From: Natrinema soli
GTDB taxonomy: Archaea > Halobacteriota > Halobacteria > Halobacteriales > Natrialbaceae
DNA length: 6,945 nucleotides
Assembly (NCBI RefSeq): GCF_028618695.1
Contig: NZ_JAQIVI010000049.1
Location: forward strand, 1-6,945
Reading direction: 5' to 3'
Positions 1 to 6,945 of the stretch are shown piece after piece. The position numbers and the translations under genes were made by a program. Each line of letters starts with the position of its first letter. The first letter of the stretch is position 1. The notes below the pieces were generated by a model that did no database searches, had not been told where the DNA came from, and saw only the letters and a list, made by a program, of their open reading frames with translations.

Positions 1-240
1 CGACGCGAACACTGTCCGGCCTGTGGCGAGAGGGTGACGACGACGGCCGAGCGCCTCGAGCACTGCTGTCGTCGACCCCGCGTCGGCATTCGGTCCGTCT
101 GCGAGGCGTGCGATCGGCCGCTCGTCGAACTCGTCGTTTCCGAGTCGAGCGCCGACCCGTGGCTCGAGTTGGCCGGCGTGACGGCCGCGGACGACTCGCC
201 GTCCGAAACGGAGGGATCGACGCGCGTCAGTCGTCAGTAG
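1..240 (+). CDS. C-terminal part of a Cys-rich putative zinc-ribbon protein (5' end outside window)
   Basis: Frame 1 is open from the first base to a TAG at 238-240, so the gene begins upstream of the window and only its last 79 residues are visible. An internal GTG at 34 could start a short product, but it would cut off the first Cys pair, so I prefer a partial gene. Visible Cys residues come as C-P-A-C-G (window residues 5-9), a C-C pair (22-23) and C-E-A-C-D (34-38). This spacing suggests one or two zinc knuckles. The block from E-H-C-C through P-L-V-E-L-V looks like a conserved core, followed by an acidic tail rich in S, D and E. I do not recognise the family and give no function. The last 14 bases overlap, tail to tail, the end of the fdhF gene on the other strand. 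Confidence 0.65.
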   Translation, partial: RREHCPACGERVTTTAERLEHCCRRPRVGIRSVCEACDRPLVELVVSESSADPWLELAGVTAADDSPSETEGSTRVSRQ

Positions 241-2458
241 CCGCTGGATCGGCGGTCTCGCCGAGGGGTTCGATATCGACGTCGATTTCGGCGGCGGCGG
301 CCTTGTACTCTGGAATCTTCGACCGCTCGTCGAGCACGTGATTCGTGAGCTTGTTCGCCGAGGCGGCCGCGAAGTGCGGCGTCGTCCAGACGACGCCCTC
401 CTTGGTGTCCTCGGTCACGTGCGCCTCGAGCGTGATCTCGCCCCGTCTCGAACGGAGCCGGACGTACTCGTCGTCTTCGATGCCGTAGCGCTCGGCGTCG
501 GTGGGGTGGACGTCGACGAAGTTCTCCGGGGTCTGCTTGTTGAGCGTCGGCGATCGCGTGCTCATCGTCCCGGTGTTGTAGTGTTCCTCGAGCCGGGCGG
601 TCGTGAGGATCAGCGGGTACTCGTCGTCGGGCGTCTCGGCCGGGGGCTGGTGGGCGACGCCCTCGATGTGGCCGCGCCCGCTCTCGGTGTCGAACTCGTG
701 CTCGTAGAGGAAGGGGTCGCCCTCGTCGCCGGGTTCGTAGCAGGGCCAGTGGAGCCCCTCCTCGCCCAGCAGGTCGTAGGTCATCCCGTGGTAGCTCGGA
801 CAGACCTGCCGGAGTTCCTCGAAGATTTCCTCGGGGTCCTCGAAGTCAAATTTTCCGCCGGACGGAGTCCGGCTCTCCGCGGAACCCCGTTCCTCGCTCT
901 CACCAAACAGGCGCGTCCCGATCTCGCTCAGGATCTCGCGGTCGTGTTTGGTGTTCTCGTGGACTTTCCCGACGCCGCGCATCCGCTGGACGCGCCGATC
1001 GGTGTTGGTGACGGTGCCGCCGCGTTCGGCCCAGGTCGTCGCCGGCAGGATCACGTCGGCGTACTCCGCGGTTTCGGTCGGGAAGATGTCCTGGACGACC
1101 GTGAACTCGAGGTCCGCGAGCCGCTCGGCGACGGCGTTGGCGTCGGGTTCGCTCATCACGGGGTTCTCGCCCATGACGTAGAGTCCCTTGATCGAGTCCC
1201 CGGCCTCGTAGGAGATTTCGACGTTCGTGAGCCCGGGTTCGTCCGGGATTTCGAAGCCCCAGACCTCCTCGACGGACTCGCGGGCCTCGTCGTCGTCGAC
1301 TAACTGGTAGCCCGGCAGGACGTTCGGCATCGCGCCGACGTCGCAGGTTCCCTGGACGTTGTTCTGGCCGCGCAGCGGGTTGACCCCCGTGCCGGGTCGC
1401 CCGAGGTTGCCCGTGATCAGCGCCAGATTGATCTCGTTCTGGACGTTGTCGACGCCGCAGGCGTGCTGGCTCATCCCCATGCCGGTGAAGATGGCCGCGT
1501 TGTTCGCCATTGCGTACTTCTCCGCGGCCAGTTCGATCGCTTCCAGTGGCACGCCACACTCCTCGGCCGCGGCTTCCTTGTCGAAGTCCTCGAGCGTCTC
1601 TCTGAGGTGTTCGAACCCCTCCGTGCGCTCCTCGATGAACACCTCGTCGATCCAGCCCTCGTAGGGGTTTTCGTCGTGCTTCTCGAGGATCGTCTTCAGG
1701 ACGATGTTGAGAAGCGGGATGTCGGTCCCGGGATTCAGCTGCAAGTGCTGGTGTCGGTCGGTGTCGTCGATCTGGAACGACCGCGTCGTCTTGTTCGCGT
1801 GGGGGTCGACCTGGATGACGGTCGCGCCCTCGAGGATGGCCTGCCGGAAGTACTGGCTGTTGGCGATCGGGTGTTGTTCGCCCGGATTCGCCCCCTGAAT
1901 CCAGAACACGTCGGCCTCCTCGCGGAGGTCCTGCATGCTGTTTGTCATCGCTCCCGCGCCCAGACTCGTGCGTAGCGCCCAGACCGTCGAGGCGTGACAC
2001 ATTCGCGTACAGTTGTCGACGTTGTTGGTGCCGTACCGGCGGGCCAGCTTCTGGAGCAGGTAGTTCTCCTCGTTCATCACCTTCGAGGAACCGAAAAAGC
2101 CCATCGCGTCCGGGCCGTACTCGTCGCGAATCCGCTCGAGTTCGTCGACGATGTACTCGTAAGCCTCCTCCCAGGAGGCCTCGCGGAACTCCTCGTCGCC
2201 GAACGACGTTCGGCTGCCGGACGAGCTTTGCTCGTCGCTGTCTGCTTTGATCAGCGGGTTGGTGAGCCGGTCCTCGTGGTCGACGACCTCAGTCGCCGCT
2301 CCGCCTTTGATGCAGATGCGGCCCTCGTTGACCGGGGCGTCACCCCACGGCATGAACTGCACGTCGCCGGGCTCCTCGCCCGGCTGTACTTTAATTCCAC
2401 ACCCGACGCCACAGTACGGACAGATCGTCTTGATTGGTTCTTGGTTATCGCTTGACAT
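227..2458 (-). CDS. fdhF: Formate dehydrogenase alpha subunit, Cys form (Mo/W-bis-MGD, 4Fe-4S)
   Basis: This 743-residue protein of the DMSO-reductase superfamily oxidises formate to CO2 at a Mo or W bis-MGD centre. The N-terminal 4Fe-4S motif is C13-x2-C16-x3-C20 plus C49, and K51 is the usual lysine between cluster and pterin. N-C-T-R-M-C154-H155 carries Cys at the position that is selenocysteine in E. coli FdhF (U140-H141). H155 and the N-P-L-R363-G-Q-N-N-V-Q-G block fit formate dehydrogenase better than NasA-type nitrate reductase. The MGD-binding C-terminal domain spans about 610-725 and ends with T-N-H-V-L-D and I-P-E-Y-K-A. The ATG at 2458 is chosen because GGAGGT (2466-2471) lies 7 nt upstream; the frame could extend 8 codons to 2482. 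No FdhB- or FdhC-type partner gene is next to it, so the electron acceptor subunit must be elsewhere. Two in-frame palindromic inserts (residues 73-88 and 520-535) make it longer than expected for the family. There is no signal peptide, so it is probably cytoplasmic. Confidence 0.93.
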   Translation of the reverse strand: MSSDNQEPIKTICPYCGVGCGIKVQPGEEPGDVQFMPWGDAPVNEGRICIKGGAATEVVDHEDRLTNPLIKADSDEQSSSGSRTSFGDEEFREASWEEAYEYIVDELERIRDEYGPDAMGFFGSSKVMNEENYLLQKLARRYGTNNVDNCTRMCHASTVWALRTSLGAGAMTNSMQDLREEADVFWIQGANPGEQHPIANSQYFRQAILEGATVIQVDPHANKTTRSFQIDDTDRHQHLQLNPGTDIPLLNIVLKTILEKHDENPYEGWIDEVFIEERTEGFEHLRETLEDFDKEAAAEECGVPLEAIELAAEKYAMANNAAIFTGMGMSQHACGVDNVQNEINLALITGNLGRPGTGVNPLRGQNNVQGTCDVGAMPNVLPGYQLVDDDEARESVEEVWGFEIPDEPGLTNVEISYEAGDSIKGLYVMGENPVMSEPDANAVAERLADLEFTVVQDIFPTETAEYADVILPATTWAERGGTVTNTDRRVQRMRGVGKVHENTKHDREILSEIGTRLFGESEERGSAESRTPSGGKFDFEDPEEIFEELRQVCPSYHGMTYDLLGEEGLHWPCYEPGDEGDPFLYEHEFDTESGRGHIEGVAHQPPAETPDDEYPLILTTARLEEHYNTGTMSTRSPTLNKQTPENFVDVHPTDAERYGIEDDEYVRLRSRRGEITLEAHVTEDTKEGVVWTTPHFAAASANKLTNHVLDERSKIPEYKAAAAEIDVDIEPLGETADPAATDD
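854..901 (-). repeat. In-frame palindromic insert B in fdhF (double hairpin, 48 bp)
   Basis: In coding orientation this segment encodes fdhF residues 520-535 (E-S-E-E-R-G-S-A-E-S-R-T-P-S-G-G), in a loop just before the conserved F-D-F-E-D-P-E-E helix. It holds two hairpins with 3-nt loops. The first is at 879-895, with five core pairs (GGAAC/GTTCC), one mismatch and one outer pair. The second is at 857-873, with seven perfect pairs (GCCGGAC/GTCCGGC). The hairpins are 5 nt apart. It aligns without gaps to insert A (2195-2242): 30 of 48 bases and 7 of 16 residues match by my count. The exact ends are uncertain because no target-site duplication is obvious. Confidence 0.6.
2195..2242 (-). repeat. 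In-frame palindromic insert A in fdhF (double hairpin, 48 bp)
   Basis: In coding orientation this segment encodes fdhF residues 73-88 (D-S-D-E-Q-S-S-S-G-S-R-T-S-F-G-D). It sits between the conserved R-L-T-N-P-L-I-K and E-F-R-E-A-S-W-E-E blocks, where relatives normally have only a few residues. It has two perfect hairpins: 2220-2236 (GACGAGC/GCTCGTC, loop 3 nt) and 2198-2214 (GCCGAAC/GTTCGGC, loop 3 nt), 5 nt apart. Geometry and reading-frame register are identical to insert B (854-901). The encoded stretch is rich in Ser, Gly and Asp/Glu, as expected for a tolerated surface loop. Confidence 0.6.
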
Positions 2459-2464
2459 CTGTGG

Positions 2465-2471
2465 TACCTCC
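2465..2471 (-). promoter_or_regulatory. Shine-Dalgarno site of fdhF
   Basis: On the minus strand GGAGGTA is followed by six bases and then ATG at 2458; counting from GGAGGT the spacer is 7 nt. This is a full match to the anti-SD of 16S rRNA at good spacing. It fixes the start of fdhF at 2458 and shows that the mRNA has a leader, unlike many haloarchaeal messages. Confidence 0.75.
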
Positions 2472-2576
2472 AGGTGTCGCACCCGTTAGACCAACCCACT
2501 ATCCGAGCATGCATGAGGTTTTCTACCATAGGAGCAGTACGTTGCAACGAGCGACTGCTCGGACAACGCGGAGCGC

Positions 2577-2600
2577 CGTCCGGAGCGAACGAACCGGACG
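2577..2600. repeat. Inverted repeat CGTCCGG / CCGGACG (7-bp arms, 10-nt loop)
   Basis: Perfect 7-bp arms at 2577-2583 and 2594-2600 flank a 10-nt spacer. It lies about 120-140 bp upstream of the fdhF start, next to a smaller inverted repeat at 2548-2561. It could be an operator, a transcript hairpin or a decayed palindromic element. The 10-nt loop differs from the 3-nt loops of the fdhF inserts, so I do not assign it to that family. Confidence 0.4.
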
Positions 2601-2731
2601 AAGGAAGGATCCCTCCTCGCCACCAGTATGAGCAGAACGCTGGTCGTCAGTATCACCGGTTGCAACTCCGATTCCCGACGTCCTCATCGGTAGGGAAACG
2701 CTAACGGTCACGCGTGCGAAACCGTCACTCG

Positions 2732-3286
2732 ATGGAGTTCACGCGGTCGCTCGTGGAATCCCAGGCGTGCGAGTATCGGGAGCGAGAGCCCCTGTACGCC
2801 GTCGAGGAGGAAACGCTCGAGACGCTCCCTGCAGCGTTCGAGTCGGGCGAATACGGCCGGCGGGACGCGGCCTGGGTCGTCAGGTGGTACTACCGGCGGT
2901 TCCTCGGCGACTATCCCGACGACGAGCGACGGGACGCAGAAGAGCGGTTCTGGACCAACGACTTCGAGGCCGTCAGAGACGCCATCGCCGACGCCGTCGA
3001 CGCGAGCGACGCCGCCGCGGCAATCGACTCGCTGACCGCCCTCGAGGCGGTCGACGTCCCCGTCGCCTCGGCGTTTTGCATGTTTATCGACCCCGACGAG
3101 TACGTCGTCGTCGGTCCCCGCGAGTGGTCGACGCTCCGGGACGCGGACGAACTCTCTCACTCGTATCCGAATCCGCCGTCGGTTTCGCAGTACGAGACCT
3201 ACCTCGAGCACTGTCGCTCGCTCGCTGACCGATTCGACTGCGACCTCTGGACGGTGTACCGCGCGCTCTGGCGGCTGTCGGATTGA
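2732..3286 (+). CDS. Uncharacterised protein with a helix-hairpin-helix/DNA-glycosylase-like core
   Basis: The protein has 184 residues from the ATG at 2732; an in-frame GTG at 2714 would add six residues. I chose ATG because no ribosome site favours the GTG. Residues about 40-56 (E-Y-G-R-R-D-A-A-W-V-V-R-W-Y-Y-R-R) are aromatic and basic. Around 100-125 is a block of the form S-L-T-A-L-E-A-V-D-V-P-V-A-S-A-F followed by D-P-D-E-Y-V-V-V-G-P-R-E-W. The C-terminal part has Y-L-E-H-C-R-S-L-A-D-R-F and ends R-A-L-W-R-L-S-D. This order resembles small proteins with the fold of HhH-GPD base-excision glycosylases (L..L.GV....AS.......Y.V.D.R). The usual Gly of the hairpin and a clear catalytic Lys/Asp pair are not evident, so enzyme activity is doubtful. 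No signal peptide or membrane helix is seen. The fold is my inference; that it is a real gene is well supported by its acidic composition and length. Confidence 0.7.
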   Translation: MEFTRSLVESQACEYREREPLYAVEEETLETLPAAFESGEYGRRDAAWVVRWYYRRFLGDYPDDERRDAEERFWTNDFEAVRDAIADAVDASDAAAAIDSLTALEAVDVPVASAFCMFIDPDEYVVVGPREWSTLRDADELSHSYPNPPSVSQYETYLEHCRSLADRFDCDLWTVYRALWRLSD

Positions 3287-3304
3287 GCGATGAACGCGGT
3301 TGCA

Positions 3305-3330
3305 GTCGCATTCACTCCGTTCAATGCGAC
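3305..3330. repeat. Inverted repeat GTCGCATT / AATGCGAC upstream of mobA
   Basis: Perfect 8-bp arms (3305-3312 and 3323-3330) flank a 10-nt loop, in the 80-bp gap between the HhH-like gene's stop (3286) and mobA. It is immediately upstream of the T-rich element that should be the mobA TATA box. An alternative pairing TGAACG (3291-3296) with CGTTCA (3318-3323) also exists. It could be an operator over the mobA promoter or part of the terminator of the gene upstream. The stem is followed after a few bases by TTTT (3338-3341), which fits either reading. Confidence 0.5.
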
Positions 3331-3337
3331 CGCGCAC

Positions 3338-3366
3338 TTTTCCTATCGCTCGACCAACGGTCGACC
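3338..3366 (+). promoter_or_regulatory. Probable mobA core promoter with a hairpin next to the start codon
   Basis: TTTTCCTA (3338-3345) lies 22-29 nt before the ATG at 3367, the spacing expected for a TATA box of a nearly leaderless haloarchaeal transcript. No Shine-Dalgarno site precedes the ATG. Between the two sits a perfect inverted repeat TCGACC-AAC-GGTCGA (3350-3364), which ends two bases before the start codon and is well placed as a repressor site over the transcription start. The TATA match is imperfect. Confidence 0.4.
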
Positions 3367-4005
3367 ATGTCCCAGGAAACTCGCCGAACCGAGCGAGCGG
3401 GCGTCGTTCTCGCTGGCGGCTACTCGACCCGCTTCGGCGAGGCGGACAAGGCCGTCGTCGACCTCGCCAGCACACCGATGATCCGCCGCGTCGTCGACCG
3501 GATCAACCCGACCGTCGACGAGATCGTCGTCAACTGCCGAGACGAGCAGCTCCCGGCGATACGAACGGCGCTCGAGGGCGGACCCGACGCGTCATTCGCG
3601 GTCGATCCGATCCCCGACCGCGGACCGATGGCGGGGATCATGACCGGACTCGGCGAGGCGACGGCGGAGTACGCCGTCGTCGTCGCCTGCGACATGCCCT
3701 TCGTCGAGCCAGCCCTCGTCGACCACCTTTTCGACCGGGCGGCTGGACACGAGGCCGCGGTGCCGCGGCTCGAGGACCAGTGGTTTCAGACGACGCAGGC
3801 GGTCTATCAGCCCTCGGCGATGATCGACGCCTGCGAGCGCGCCCTCGAGCGCGACGAGCGCAGAGTCGTCGAGCCCCTGCTGGACCTCGACTACGTCGTC
3901 GTCGACGAGGACGAGGTTCGCGAGTACGCGCCGCTCGAGACGTTCGAGAACGTCAACACCCGCGAGGAGTTCGAAGCGGCGCTCGAGCGTCTCGAGGAGA
4001 AATAA
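3367..4005 (+). CDS. mobA: Molybdenum cofactor guanylyltransferase
   Basis: This 212-residue protein, of normal family length, transfers GMP from GTP to molybdopterin to make the MGD form of the Mo cofactor in the cytoplasm. The nucleotide-binding signature V-V-L-A-G-G-Y-S-T-R-F-G (13-24) with K28 is typical of MobA. Further family blocks are P-D-R-G-P-M-A-G-I (83-91), the metal-binding A-C-D109-M-P-F, and N-V-N-T near the C-terminus (195-198). The frame is open to 3283, but ATG 3367 is chosen because residues before it are not family-like and a TATA-like element sits at the right distance. It runs in the same direction as the HhH-like gene, with its own likely promoter, and converges on yqeC with 6 bp between stops. 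FdhF, encoded 0.9 kb away, needs bis-MGD, so MobA acts directly upstream of it. A related nucleotidyltransferase role (MocA-like) is possible but the signature fits MobA better. Confidence 0.9.
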   Translation: MSQETRRTERAGVVLAGGYSTRFGEADKAVVDLASTPMIRRVVDRINPTVDEIVVNCRDEQLPAIRTALEGGPDASFAVDPIPDRGPMAGIMTGLGEATAEYAVVVACDMPFVEPALVDHLFDRAAGHEAAVPRLEDQWFQTTQAVYQPSAMIDACERALERDERRVVEPLLDLDYVVVDEDEVREYAPLETFENVNTREEFEAALERLEEK

Positions 4006-4011
4006 GTCCGG

Positions 4012-4761
4012 CTAGCGCTCGAACACGTCGACCACCGGGTCGTCCGCGAGCATCCGCGCCGAGACGACTCGCGTCACGACCGGCGCTCGCTCGAGCAACT
4101 CCCGTCCGATATCCTCCGCGACATCCCGCATCTCGGCGTCATCGACCTTGTTGAGTAACGGGACGACCGTCGCACCGTCCGGAACAGCCGTCAGCCCGCC
4201 GTGCTCGCTCGCGATTACTCGAGCGACGTCTTCGGGCCCGATTGCGTCGCCGCGATCGAGCCCGGTGATCGCCGCCACTCGCTCCGGCCGGTGGACGTGA
4301 TCGGCCGAGAGCGGCTTTCCAACGGCCTGCACGCTCGCGATCGGGACGACGGTGTCGACGTGGTCGGGAAGTTGCGGTTCGCGCTCGTTCGGTGCCTTGA
4401 ACTCTCGCGTCCGCGCACCGTCGGCCTTGACGAGAACGAGATCGGCGACGCCGGCCGCCGCGATATCGTCGACGATTTCGGGATCGTACCCCGCGTACCG
4501 GTCTTCTCCCTCCCGCTCCGGGACGACGCCGAGGGGCCACGCGTCCGCTCGCTCGAGCGCCGCGACCGGGTCGTCGGTCACGACGACTTCCTCGACGTGT
4601 CGATCGAAGATCGGGATCCGAACCGTCGCCGTCACGACCGCTCGCAGGGATCGATCGCGGGCGGCGCGTGCGGCCAGTGCGTAGAGCGTTGTCTTCTTGC
4701 CGCCCGCACCGACGACGGCGACGACACCGGACTCAGCTCGGAGCGCCTCGAGAACGTCCAT
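4012..4761 (-). CDS. yqeC: YqeC-like NTPase, putative selenium/molybdenum-enzyme accessory protein
   Basis: This 249-residue protein has an N-terminal P-loop-like motif V-V-G-A-G-G-K-K-T-T (16-25), a block V-K-A-D-G-A-R (111-117) followed by E-F-K-A-P-N-E-R-E-P, and L-L-N-K-V-D (202-207), which resembles a base-specificity motif. This order is typical of the YqeC family, known from bacteria as an accessory gene of selenium-dependent molybdenum hydroxylases; its exact reaction is not established. The length matches the family. The ATG at 4761 is supported by immediate conservation of the P-loop region and by a TATA-like AACGATTAG about 26 nt upstream, which suggests a leaderless message. It converges with mobA. 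In an organism whose FdhF uses Cys, its partner enzyme is not obvious. It may serve a Mo hydroxylase encoded elsewhere or handle the Mo cofactor more generally. No membrane segment is seen. Confidence 0.82.
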   Translation of the reverse strand: MDVLEALRAESGVVAVVGAGGKKTTLYALAARAARDRSLRAVVTATVRIPIFDRHVEEVVVTDDPVAALERADAWPLGVVPEREGEDRYAGYDPEIVDDIAAAGVADLVLVKADGARTREFKAPNEREPQLPDHVDTVVPIASVQAVGKPLSADHVHRPERVAAITGLDRGDAIGPEDVARVIASEHGGLTAVPDGATVVPLLNKVDDAEMRDVAEDIGRELLERAPVVTRVVSARMLADDPVVDVFER

Positions 4762-4781
4762 ACCGGACCTACTACCGGACC
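4761..4781. repeat. Direct repeat TACCGGACC x2 overlapping the yqeC start
   Basis: The 9-mer TACCGGACC occurs at 4761-4769 and 4773-4781, with a 12-bp period. The first copy touches the yqeC start codon and the second lies just downstream of its likely TATA box. Paired half-sites at one helical-turn-like spacing could bind a regulator. It could also be a chance duplication in GC-rich DNA. Confidence 0.45.
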
Positions 4782-4783
4782 CG

Positions 4784-4794
4784 GCTAATCGTTT
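4784..4794 (-). promoter_or_regulatory. Possible yqeC TATA box
   Basis: On the minus strand AAACGATTAGC is centred about 27 nt before the ATG at 4761. The spacing suits a leaderless transcript and it is the only AT-rich patch in this gap. The match to the haloarchaeal TATA consensus is weak. Confidence 0.35.
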
Positions 4795-4858
4795 GGGTCC
4801 GTGGCCCCGCGGCCGTCGCTCGAGTCCGCCGCAGCGAGGGCGGGTTCCGTCCCTGCTC

Positions 4859-4890
4859 TTTTATCGGCTCTAAGGCGTACTGAAACGGAG
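4859..4890 (+). promoter_or_regulatory. Promoter and Shine-Dalgarno site of the flavodoxin remnant
   Basis: CTCTTTTATC, with TTTTAT at 4859-4864, is a good haloarchaeal TATA element 33 nt before the ATG at 4898. GGAG at 4887-4890 sits 7 nt before the ATG. Expression signals are therefore intact although the coding region is shortened, so the remnant may still be transcribed and translated. Confidence 0.55.
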
Positions 4891-4897
4891 AGCGACG

Positions 4898-5092
4898 ATG
4901 GGTTCGATTCTCGTGAGCTACGGTAGCGGTGAGGGGCAGACGGCGACGGTCGCCGATCGAATCGGCGACGTGCTTGCCGACCGCGGGCATGATGCCACCG
5001 CGACGAATATCGACGAGGTTCCGGCGGACTTCGTCGCGTTCGTCGAGGGTCGGCTTTGCGTGCGGCCGCCCGAAATGGCTAGCGGAAACTGA
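4898..5092 (+). pseudogene. Flavodoxin/HemG-like gene with an apparent in-frame internal deletion (64 codons left)
   Basis: Residues 1-40 are a typical flavodoxin N-terminus: beta strand I-L-V-S-Y, the FMN phosphate loop G-S-G-E-G-Q-T-A (9-16), then the helix A-D-R-I-G-D-V-L. Intact flavodoxin-domain proteins of this type (protoporphyrinogen oxidase HemG-like) are about 150-200 residues. Here the middle of the fold is absent. The last 20 residues (A-D-F-V-A-F-V-E-G-R-L-C-V-R-P-P and on) resemble what I remember as the C-terminal helix of haloarchaeal members. The simplest reading is an internal in-frame deletion joining both ends near A43-D44-F45 (5024-5032), rather than simple 3' truncation. 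The product cannot form an FMN site. Promoter and ribosome site look intact. Its stop is 11 bp from the convergent stop of the BKACE gene. The alternative is a small functional protein, which I consider unlikely. Confidence 0.7.
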
Positions 5093-5103
5093 CTGCCTCA
5101 GTA

Positions 5104-5946
5104 CTACAGCCCGAGTATCTCCCGCGCCTGCGCCGGTGTCGCGACCTCACGACCCAGTTCCGCCGCGACGCGGACGACGCGTTCGACCAGTTGTGCGTTG
5201 CTCTCGGCGAGTTCCCCCCGCCGGTAGTAGACGTTGTCCTCGAGCCCGACGCGAACGTGCCCGCCGAACAAGAGCCCCATCGTCGCGAAGGGCAACTGGT
5301 GGCGACCGAAGCCGAGCGTGTTGAACAGCGCCCCGTCGGGAAGGTTGTCGATCGCGTTCAGGAAGTTTCGCGGCCGGGGCGGAGTCAGCGTTCCGGGGCC
5401 GAAGATCAGCGTCGCGTACACCGGCTCGGCGAGGTCCCGACGCTCGAGCAGGCCGCGGACCTCGTTCAGATGGCCGTCGTTGAACACCTCGAGTTCGGGT
5501 TTGATGCCGCGGTCGACCATCTCCGCGTGGAGCGAGTTGACCAGTCCGCGGGTGTTCTCGCTGGTGAGGTGGTCGTAGCGGTTCAGCGGGCCCATGTCGA
5601 GCGAAGCCATCTCCGGTGCGGGATCGGTTCGCAGGGGGAAGTGACGGTCCGCATCGGGCGCGCCCGTGCCGCCGGTGGAGTGCTGGATAATCACGTCGTC
5701 CGCGTAGCGTCGAATGGCGTCGTCGATCTCCTGAAAGCGCTCAGTTGCGAAGCTCCGCTCGCCGTTCGGTCGGCGCGCGTGGACGTGGACGACGGCGGCT
5801 CCGGCGGCCTCGGCCTCGGCTGCTGCCTTCCCGATCTCCGCTGGCGTCTCCGGGATGTGGGGCGACGTTTCCTTGCCTTGCACGCCGCCGGTCAGCGCCG
5901 CCGTGACGATCGCCGGTTCGCCGGCGAGGAAGTCCTGATAGGTCAC
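5104..5946 (-). CDS. BKACE / DUF849 family beta-keto acid cleavage enzyme
   Basis: This 280-residue protein belongs to the family whose founder is 3-keto-5-aminohexanoate cleavage enzyme (Kce). These TIM-barrel, Zn-dependent enzymes condense a beta-keto acid with acetyl-CoA and split it into acetoacetate and a new acyl-CoA. Seen here are the strand I-V-T-A-A-L-T-G-G (13-21) and the metal motif V-H54-V-H56-A-R. There are also S-T-G-G-T-G near 110, E-V-F-N-D-G-H-L in the middle, and V-G-L-E236-D-N close to the C-terminus. H54, H56 and E236 match the Zn/active-site residues of Kce. The length is normal. The start is GTG at 5946; its GTGA overlaps the TGA of the upstream small gene by 4 bp, so translation is probably coupled. 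The true substrate cannot be told from sequence: the family covers carnitine-derived, lysine-derived and other keto acids, and no diagnostic neighbour (lysine or carnitine pathway) is present. Confidence 0.9.
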   Translation of the reverse strand: MTYQDFLAGEPAIVTAALTGGVQGKETSPHIPETPAEIGKAAAEAEAAGAAVVHVHARRPNGERSFATERFQEIDDAIRRYADDVIIQHSTGGTGAPDADRHFPLRTDPAPEMASLDMGPLNRYDHLTSENTRGLVNSLHAEMVDRGIKPELEVFNDGHLNEVRGLLERRDLAEPVYATLIFGPGTLTPPRPRNFLNAIDNLPDGALFNTLGFGRHQLPFATMGLLFGGHVRVGLEDNVYYRRGELAESNAQLVERVVRVAAELGREVATPAQAREILGL

Positions 5947-6197
5947 GCGTCCTCACCTCCCGTTTCGTCCGCGCCGGTAGCCTCACCGACGTCCGCCGCG
6001 GTGTCGGCATCGTCGGCGTGCTCGCGGTAGATTTCGCAGTCGCGGTCGTGTGCGAGGTCGTAGCGGTCGGTACAGATATCGGCTCGCATCGGCTGGACGA
6101 ACCGATCGGCCGCCGTGCAGTACGCTCGCGCTTCGTCGAACGGGTCGCGGTCAGGATCGTCGGACCCGTCCCGGTACTCGAGATATGGACAGCTCAT
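5943..6197 (-). CDS. Small Cys-rich protein coupled to the BKACE gene
   Basis: This 84-residue protein has C3, C27, C42 and C54 in the blocks S-C-P-Y-L-E-Y-R, A-Y-C-T-A-A-D-R-F, R-A-D-I-C-T-D-R-Y-D-L-A-H and D-C-E-I-Y-R-E-H. Four Cys with nearby His suggest a bound metal ion or iron-sulfur cluster. The last 25 residues are a low-complexity acidic tail rich in A, D, E and G. It resembles small haloarchaeal hypothetical proteins I have seen before, but I know no function for them. It is the first gene of a two-gene operon; its stop overlaps the BKACE GTG start by 4 bp. The ATG at 6197 has no Shine-Dalgarno site, but the palindrome TGTTAACA lies 22 bp upstream at TATA-box spacing, so the mRNA is probably leaderless. 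A link to BKACE (chaperone, metal delivery or partner) is only inferred from the coupling. Confidence 0.8.
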   Translation of the reverse strand: MSCPYLEYRDGSDDPDRDPFDEARAYCTAADRFVQPMRADICTDRYDLAHDRDCEIYREHADDADTAADVGEATGADETGGEDA

Positions 6198-6219
6198 ACG
6201 TGTCGTTACGTCCGTGGGG

Positions 6220-6227
6220 TGTTAACA
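6220..6227 (-). promoter_or_regulatory. Likely TATA region of the small-protein/BKACE operon
   Basis: TGTTAACA is an 8-bp perfect palindrome ending 22 nt before the ATG at 6197, the right distance for a leaderless haloarchaeal promoter. It lies in the 154-bp divergent gap (6198-6351) that separates this operon from the dioxygenase gene. I see no other clear element in that gap. Confidence 0.4.
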
Positions 6228-6351
6228 GTCGCTGTTGGTTCGGCCACTCTCGAGGTGCCAACTCGAGCAGGTGCCCGACCAGTAACCCGCGCGTCCCCCG
6301 GTGACGCGAACGCGAGCAAACGATTCAAGCGGGGAGTCCCTAGGAACGGTA

Positions 6352-6945
6352 ATGTCACCGAACACACCCGGACTCCACCACGTCACGGCGATCGCTGGCG
6401 ACCCGCAGGCGAACGCCGACTTCTACGTCGGCACGCTCGGCCTGCGATTCGTCAAGCGGACCGTCAACCACGACGACACGGGCACGTACCACTTCTACTT
6501 CGGCGACGGCGAGGGCTCGCCCGGAACGAACATAACCTTCTTCCCGTGGACCGACCAGGGTCGCGAGGGGCAGTTCGGAGCCGGGCAAACCCGGACGACT
6601 GCCTACGGAATTCCCGCCTCGTCGGTCGCCTACTGGCGCGACCGCCTCGAGTCCGCCGGCGTCGACTACGCGGAGGAATCGCGGTTCGACGAGACCGTCC
6701 TCCAGTTTTCGGATCCGGACGGGATCGGACTCGAGCTGGTGGCGAGCGAGGCGCTACGCGCTTCGGGCCAGGTGAACGGCGACGCCGCGAACGACGACAC
6801 CGAGTTCGACGCGACACCGTGGGGCGAGAGCCCGGTGCCGACCGAACACCAACTTCGGGGCTTCTACAGCGTCACGCTGGCGGTCGACCAGTTCGGCCCC
6901 ACGGAAACGATCCTGACCGACGTGCTGGGGTACGCTCTCGAGGCC
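6352..6945 (+). CDS. VOC-family ring-cleaving dioxygenase (3' end outside window)
   Basis: The frame is open from ATG 6352 through the last base, giving the first 198 residues of a protein that should be about 310-330 long. It starts P-G-L-H-H10-V-T-A-I-A-G-D-P, the first metal-ligand motif of the vicinal oxygen chelate fold, followed by N-A-D-F-Y-V-G-T-L-G-L-R-F-V-K and T-Y-H-F-Y-F-G-D-G-E-G-S-P-G-T. This fits the MhqO/MhqA/PcpA-like hydroquinone-type extradiol dioxygenases annotated as ring-cleaving dioxygenases. The first VOC half closes with F-S-D-P-D-G-I-G-L-E-L-V (to residue 130). A second half begins at L-R-G-F-Y-S-V-T-L (168-176), where relatives often have G-F-H. Residues 132-154 form a loop that looks longer than usual and contains a hairpin. 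The remaining Fe(II) ligands lie beyond the window, so activity cannot be judged. AGGA (6342-6345) six bases before the ATG is a weak ribosome site. It is divergent from the BKACE operon. Confidence 0.85.
   Translation, partial: MSPNTPGLHHVTAIAGDPQANADFYVGTLGLRFVKRTVNHDDTGTYHFYFGDGEGSPGTNITFFPWTDQGREGQFGAGQTRTTAYGIPASSVAYWRDRLESAGVDYAEESRFDETVLQFSDPDGIGLELVASEALRASGQVNGDAANDDTEFDATPWGESPVPTEHQLRGFYSVTLAVDQFGPTETILTDVLGYALEA
6745..6787 (+). repeat. Possible degenerate half-copy of the in-frame palindromic element
   Basis: After an AGC codon, GAGGCGC (6748-6754), loop TAC and GCGCTTC (6758-6764) form a 7-3-7 hairpin with one G-T wobble. It has the same reading-frame register as hairpin 1 of the fdhF inserts. 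A shorter hairpin CGGC-GAC-GCCG follows at 6777-6787, not at the second-hairpin position of the fdhF inserts. The segment lies in an apparently extended inter-module loop (residues 132-145) of the dioxygenase. Because short GC hairpins arise often by chance here, membership in the family is tentative. Confidence 0.3.

Follow-up and report, generated by a model that had tools for sequence, protein, structure and literature searches.

A probable mobile palindromic element of 45 bp that lies in frame in haloarchaeal genes, found twice in fdhF of Natrinema soli

Rickettsia palindromic elements (RPEs) are palindromic DNA segments that lie in frame in unrelated genes and add a tolerated peptide to the encoded proteins, according to the available passages of two reports (PMC2229807, PMC10969869). 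Coding palindromes of Wolbachia and palindromic repetitive elements with coding potential in Methanocaldococcus jannaschii (Suyama, Lathe and Bork 2005) have also been described, both as cited in a passage of PMC2996958. Here we report on a 45-bp element composed of two small hairpins, which occurs twice in fdhF, the gene of the formate dehydrogenase alpha subunit, in a 6,945-nt stretch of DNA from the haloarchaeon Natrinema soli (contig NZ_JAQIVI010000049.1, positions 1–6,945; hereafter the window). The first-pass annotation of the window had named the Rickettsia elements as a parallel, which is correct, and the Wolbachia and archaeal palindromes are parallels besides. As far as these descriptions go, RPEs and the Wolbachia palindromes resemble the haloarchaeal element in being small palindromes, in frame, in unrelated genes, with a tolerated peptide. 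The element shares with RPEs the stem-loops, the common in-frame peptide in unrelated genes and the empty orthologous sites, but differs in length and host: RPEs measure 105–146 or about 150 bp and belong to Rickettsia, whereas the haloarchaeal element measures 45 bp, has two small hairpins, one fixed frame and a GAC target, and belongs to Halobacteria. The M. jannaschii elements, as described in PMC2996958, are archaeal in-frame coding palindromes too, but those of a methanogen.

Two further groups of elements are also comparable. Repetitive extragenic palindromes (REPs) tagged with GTAG or CGTC include intragenic units, more than half of which are dimeric or grouped and encode 20 to 30 residues; by passages of PMC3733652, they resemble the haloarchaeal element as small hairpins that are often paired and sometimes intragenic, but they are extragenic by name and the GTAG types are tied to transposase genes, whereas the top haloarchaeal matches are mostly genic. 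The palindrome-associated transposable elements (PATEs) of Haloquadratum walsbyi are transposase-free; palindromes lie close to their termini, a short sequence serves for targeting and the target is not duplicated. They move where IS200-type transposases are mostly broken, and one is reduced to 52 bp (PMC3119063, in part). The 45-bp element is likewise haloarchaeal and transposase-free, with palindromes near its ends, no clear duplication and a short target. By the same partial description, PATEs are related to IS605, and in-frame coding insertions are not mentioned.

The hairpin pairs are very probably copies of a mobile in-frame insertion element, and we hold almost as firmly the full explanation, that of a non-autonomous mobile element, some 45 bp long, with copies across the class Halobacteria. 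The element enters genes as an exact insertion of 45 nt, mostly beside a GAC codon, and the host gene stays open. It works like the coding palindromes of Rickettsia, Wolbachia and Methanocaldococcus, yet by the descriptions of the others it appears to be a separate archaeal family.

Two double hairpins in fdhF and their empty sites

Both copies are read on the minus strand within fdhF (227–2482, minus strand; TIGR01591, E = 3e-212; Pfam Molybdopterin and Molydop_binding) and align with each other without gaps. The plan is AGC, a hairpin with 7-nt arms and a 3-nt loop (7-3-7), a 5-nt spacer, a second 7-3-7 hairpin and a 3-nt tail. Copy A (854–898) encodes SEERGSAESRTPSGG; its hairpin 1 (879–895) has one A·G mismatch, with six of the seven pairs formed, and its hairpin 2 (857–873) is perfect. 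Copy B (2195–2239) encodes SDEQSSSGSRTSFGD, its hairpins 1 (2220–2236) and 2 (2198–2214) are both perfect, and the GAC codon immediately 5′ of it (2240–2242) is the preferred insertion target discussed below. On re-reading, the two double hairpins of the first-pass annotation and their gap-free alignment were borne out, as was its fixed 7-3-7 plan apart from the mismatch in copy A; the 48-nt segments that it had delimited (854–901 and 2195–2242) proved too long, the inserted unit being 45 nt. Three stem pairs that it had found altered on both sides between the copies are real by alignment. These coordinated changes, which had been taken to argue for selection or descent at the nucleic-acid level, do not by themselves demonstrate selection on the structure in place, since copies A and B were inserted separately.

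Folding was compared with that of dinucleotide shuffles. As single-stranded DNA, copy B gave a z score of −3.83 (none of 200 shuffles as good) and copy A one of −2.40 (2 of 200). The corresponding RNA values were −3.37 (none of 200) and −1.42 (18 of 200); as RNA, only copy B stands out, and copy A alone is unremarkable.

For the comparison of FdhF, 38 haloarchaeal loci were translated and aligned, with Natrinema salsiterrestre (L002) settled from its DNA. The site of copy B was filled in one of the 37 orthologues covering it, Natrinema zhouii (L001), and that of copy A in one of 36, N. salsiterrestre. The window carries both elements, N. zhouii copy B but not copy A, N. salsiterrestre copy A but not copy B, and Natrinema versiforme (L028) neither; among the loci compared, the window protein is nearest to FdhF of N. 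zhouii (96%). At the copy A site, the loop of locus L036 is longer as well, but its sequence is unrelated. The solved formate dehydrogenases 9t1s and 7bkb have gaps at both element sites in the alignment. In the AlphaFold model of FdhF, the mean predicted local distance difference test score (pLDDT) is 52.5 and 389 of 751 residues lie below 50; the low values at residues 82–96 and 529–542 would lend at most weak support to loops there. A Halorubrum-like genome (G017, locus L119) carries an element at exactly the site of copy B. Its FdhF shares 92.6% identity with the protein from Halorubrum laminariae (L019), where the site is empty, and L020, L023, L024 and L025 likewise have no element there. 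Because the nearest relatives lack the insert, this site appears to have been hit independently in G017.

Two other genes, both named by eye, provided further sites. In a HerA-like ATPase gene, 16 orthologues were resolved at the site LYDD|DGEL; 10 of them had no insert and six were filled, four with the 45-nt type and two with a related 51-nt type (L237 and L238 were unresolved; G062, G042 and G081 were included because of model matches there). The site is filled in N. thermotolerans and empty in N. mahii, whose protein is 97% identical. In a FAD oxidoreductase gene, nine of 16 genomes were empty and six filled; in the remaining one, G011, which the site comparison did not display, the covariance model described below matches inside the gene. 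Four of these genomes (G220, G298, G095 and G016) were included because of model matches in the gene. The element follows an Asp codon in three genomes and lies one codon earlier in the other three. Against the empty sites, both genes show clean insertions of 45 nt. The first-pass annotation had proposed an alignment of FdhF homologues and a search for empty orthologous sites; the two fdhF segments are lineage-specific in-frame insertions, and relatives with empty sites exist for all three genes.

The 51-nt type, with a peptide close to SAEPRSADDSSGRSPRD, occurs in L223 (G003) and L225 (G006) at the HerA-like site that the 45-nt type also uses. Several families of elements may thus exist, with hot sites in common.

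Homologous recombination or horizontal transfer of genes already bearing the insert, with few true insertions, could produce the same-place copies seen across several genomes in the FAD gene, the HerA-like gene and a third gene, 'ydavrd'. We regard spread of this kind as quite improbable: FdhF of G017 groups with Halorubrum and Halolamina genes that lack the insert, the FAD gene has two insertion offsets, the HerA-like site holds two element types, and identical 45-mers occur in different genes (L120 and L124/L162; FdhF of G017, L119, and L161).

Spread, reading frame and insertion point

A first covariance model (R1), built from the two window copies, gave 17, 8, 7 and 4 matches in four Natrinema genomes at E up to 1. 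Most of the good matches lay in frame within unrelated open reading frames (ORFs); those with E above 0.5 resemble chance matches. A non-circular search, with a pattern for hairpin 2 and no other part of the element, found 25 matches (some of them orthologous copies) in 10 of 11 genomes, while the reversed pattern found none. At the fixed position upstream of these, hairpin 1 had all seven pairs in 13 matches and six of seven in two. Six more had a 7-pair stem with a different loop length or spacing, L102 had a 6-pair stem with different spacing, and L089, L091 and L104 were not element-like.

A second model (R2) was built from an alignment of 20 copies (A2), a set chosen for pairing. At E up to 0.01 it matched 254 of 292 Halobacteria genomes (best E = 3.3e-13), whereas a control model (R3) of exactly reversed sequences with the same pairs gave 20 matches in 19 of the 292 genomes (best E = 2.7e-4). 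In 18 chosen genomes, R2 had at least 1 to 17 matches each at E up to 0.001; copy counts are lower bounds, with 21 of the many initial candidates scored per genome in the 292-genome scan and 150 in the 18-genome scan. The covariance search suggested at the outset thus yielded what had been expected of it, in-frame copies in unrelated genes, far above the reversed control. A scan for geometry alone, over 585 kb of loci enriched for matches, found 24 distinct double hairpins at the 5-nt spacing (four of them not elements by eye) against 1–11 at 14 other spacings. In 400 kb of G017 there were three perfect double hairpins at gap 5, against none in three third-order Markov sequences, as well as four at gap 7; R2 had six matches in the same 400 kb at E up to 0.01. 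No phage matched at E up to 0.1. Seven plasmid records matched, of which a Tsukamurella plasmid (71% covered, E = 0.06) is probably a chance match; of two others, one is unannotated and one hypothetical at the match.

We read 70 matches from the top of the R2 list (L111–L140 and L161–L200), a sample in which intact stems are over-represented. Sixty-five of them lay in a gene, on the sense strand, open in frame 0 and with a peptide close to SEERSSSSSRTQSGD. With the element itself excluded, the codon usage of the 300-nt flanks on each side ranked frame 0 best of six in all 65, and the last codon of the element was GAC in 63. Reckoned from coordinates, the same frame is used in the plasmid genes ppsA of Haloterrigena salifodinae and cobN of Natronococcus occultus, a hemolysin-family gene of Natrinema sp. 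SYSU A 869 and an alkaline-phosphatase-family gene of Halolamina sp. CBA1230, the four haloarchaeal records with a named gene among the seven matched. Tandem or near-tandem copies in one ORF were seen in L187 (G180:C1:194074-194163), L140, L180 and L192.

Frame 0 yields a hydrophilic peptide with a net negative charge (−0.09 per residue; grand average of hydropathy −1.79), whereas none of the five alternative frames is as hydrophilic and four give basic peptides. A hydrophilic, negatively charged peptide suits the surface loops of halophile proteins, and the shared unit might accordingly be an acidic, serine-rich loop that was duplicated and selected as protein, the palindromes merely following codon choice. 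This explanation is already disfavoured, and we consider it very improbable. In the 20 copies of A2, 278 of 280 cells (99.3%) pair and three are one-sided (G-U), in a set that was, to be sure, chosen for pairing; hairpin 1 also pairs in matches found by hairpin 2 alone; the insertion point is marked by GAC and hardly ever by GAG, GAT or GAA; and non-coding relatives exist.

The preference at the insertion point was marked. The left codon was GAC in 45 of 57 in-frame insertions, counted once per distinct left context and in some cases from the same gene in different genomes, against a background of 0.089 in flanking codons; the next commonest was ATC (five). GAC made up 45 of the 47 acidic left codons, against a background share of 0.42. 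Since selection on the protein would be blind to GAC versus GAT and should accept GAG, the codon counts point to insertion that would be targeted at the DNA level.

Most copies are flanked as GAC...GAC, with GAC as the left codon in 45 of 57 and as the last codon in 63 of 65, which is what would remain if a DDE-type transposase had inserted a 42-bp core, in effect a very small miniature inverted-repeat transposable element (MITE), and duplicated 3 bp of target, GAC. At the VI|D site of the FAD gene, in three genomes, the left codon is ATC and the right one GAC: the empty sequence ATC GAC becomes ATC [45 nt] GAC, so that at most 1 nt is duplicated there. This contradicts a 3-nt GAC duplication, and the stems form two internal hairpins rather than terminal inverted repeats. 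An element of the MITE type is therefore unlikely.

Hairpin arms and the mobiliser

In A2, nine of the 14 pairs were changed on both sides. Across 33 pairs of same-site copies, stems differed at 4.4% of positions, loops at 22.7% and flanks at 16.5%, the last figure being inflated by rows shifted through indels (FdhF site 2 and probably the 'frn' rows); 17 stem pairs were changed on both sides and seven on one. These counts are pairwise and not independent, and most of the copies were picked through the model. All seven one-sided changes fall in the FdhF and FAD rows (the window against L002; L240; L243), where pairs are decaying. Between copy A and its orthologue in L002, one pair is changed on both sides and one is broken; compensatory change in place was not established as proof of selection. 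The pattern of the arms would fit selection on the hairpin, templated correction or repeated re-insertion alike.

Among these, hairpin-templated mutation (quasipalindrome correction) could keep or remake the arms, and pairing would then say nothing about function or mobility. The conserved stems and the excess of double over single changes in the 33 pairs are in its favour. The confinement of single changes to the FdhF and FAD rows tells the other way, for their scarcity elsewhere may be an effect of selection by the model. Templated mutation also leaves the insertion into empty sites and the GAC target unexplained, and it could work alongside mobility. As a replacement for mobility we find it rather unlikely.

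For the mobile element that we prefer, the following course is conceivable. The element would insert as DNA, immediately 3′ of GAC, by a process that recognises a folded single strand, as suggested by two hairpins near the ends and the lack of a clear target duplication. Transposition of single-stranded DNA of the IS200/IS605 type, supplied in trans or by past invaders, is the likeliest candidate; the hairpins lie 3 nt from each end of the element, as IS200/IS605-like anatomy expects, and its near-end palindromes, the lack of a clear duplication (no more than 1 nt at the FAD VI|D site, where it could be read) and a short fixed target (here GAC, in 45 of 57) recall PATEs as well. An IS605-like mobiliser is nonetheless a tentative assignment, the alternative being another enzyme or repair-templated copying. 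Selection would eliminate copies that had landed antisense, in another frame or within structured regions, leaving in-frame insertions in loops.

Several observations weigh against a mobile in-frame element. No mobiliser was found, and Y1 transposases show no association with the element. Of the 292 genomes, 201 have Y1_Tnp. It was not found in G001 (N. zhouii), G016, G017, G020, G022 or G026, which all have element matches, although an IS200/IS605-derived element would call for a Y1 transposase in the genome; conversely, Y1 is present in 14 of the 20 genomes listed among the 38 without the element. Of 20 Y1 loci, only two contained an element match at E < 0.001 in their 2-kb surroundings, and in neither was it closer than 1 kb to the transposase. 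Movement is deduced from filled and empty sites and was not observed. The coding character is not universal either. Besides the over-representation of intact stems among the matches read, the remaining five of the 70 have TAG in the second loop and look non-coding; of 20 further matches, mostly from match-rich genomes, seven had TAG and look non-coding and 13 were open in frame 0, three of these 13 being doubtful. A Y1 transposase as the present mobiliser was rejected, given the lack of association in the distribution among genomes and at the 20 Y1 loci. One weak element match (E = 0.042, L261) among these loci lies about 250 nt from a Y1 transposase.

Double hairpins with TAG in the second loop were seen in L165, L188–L190, L193, L205, L206, L208–L211 and L218, and several share flanks, gaggctggggaggc... 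or tgcccctttgagtcc. The TAG copies (in G019, G026, G178, G267 and G209) look like non-coding dispersed repeats, from which the coding element may derive or to which it may be related. Three matches of G017 (L213, L214 and L215) share their flanks, GCCGGCGAC on the left and CTCGCGCGTGCT on the right, to which L165 (G209) is similar on both sides. They are probably part of a longer dispersed repeat and may, despite being open in frame 0, be non-coding too.

Host gene surroundings, related elements and implications

Counted from an upstream GTG, fdhF has 751 codons; its true start is probably the ATG at 2456–2458. Near it, at 3283–4761, lie genes for a MobA-like NTP transferase and a YqeC-family protein, which suggests a molybdenum-cofactor neighbourhood. 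A short ORF on the plus strand (4898–5091), starting MGSILVSYGSGEGQTATVADRIG, is by eye a cut-down flavodoxin-like gene. An Rfam scan of the window gave a single match, far under the gathering score and away from both elements.

Among described families, REPs with their RAYT transposases (including REPINs) have a GTAG or CGTC tag at the foot of the palindrome and flank a transposase gene; by eye, A2 has no constant tetranucleotide there, and at the 20 Y1 loci no element match at E < 0.001 lay within 1 kb of the transposase. No family of haloarchaeal coding palindromes was found in the literature searched by titles and abstract openings, outside which most subscription papers lie, and passages of PMC4500146 and PMC3403918 contain nothing like it. 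The suggestion of the first-pass annotation that the family may be undescribed stands to that extent.

The element provides another, seemingly much wider, setting in which palindromic DNA invades working proteins in frame. Its many relatives, its filled and empty sites, its defined target codon and the genetic tractability of the hosts would allow direct tests of how it spreads and what it does to proteins. For annotation, the 15-residue loops S-E-x-x-x-x-S-S-S-R-T-Q-S-G-D in haloarchaeal proteins are probably insertions and not functional motifs. A bolder possibility, which we put forward with less than even confidence, is that the element is a class-wide archaeal mobile DNA adapted to genes, which picks GAC, keeps the frame with its 45 nt, encodes an acidic peptide and would move by a single-strand, hairpin-guided process without Y1. 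If this were true, coding sequence would be the main habitat of the element, and its peptide would resemble the surface loops of halophile proteins.

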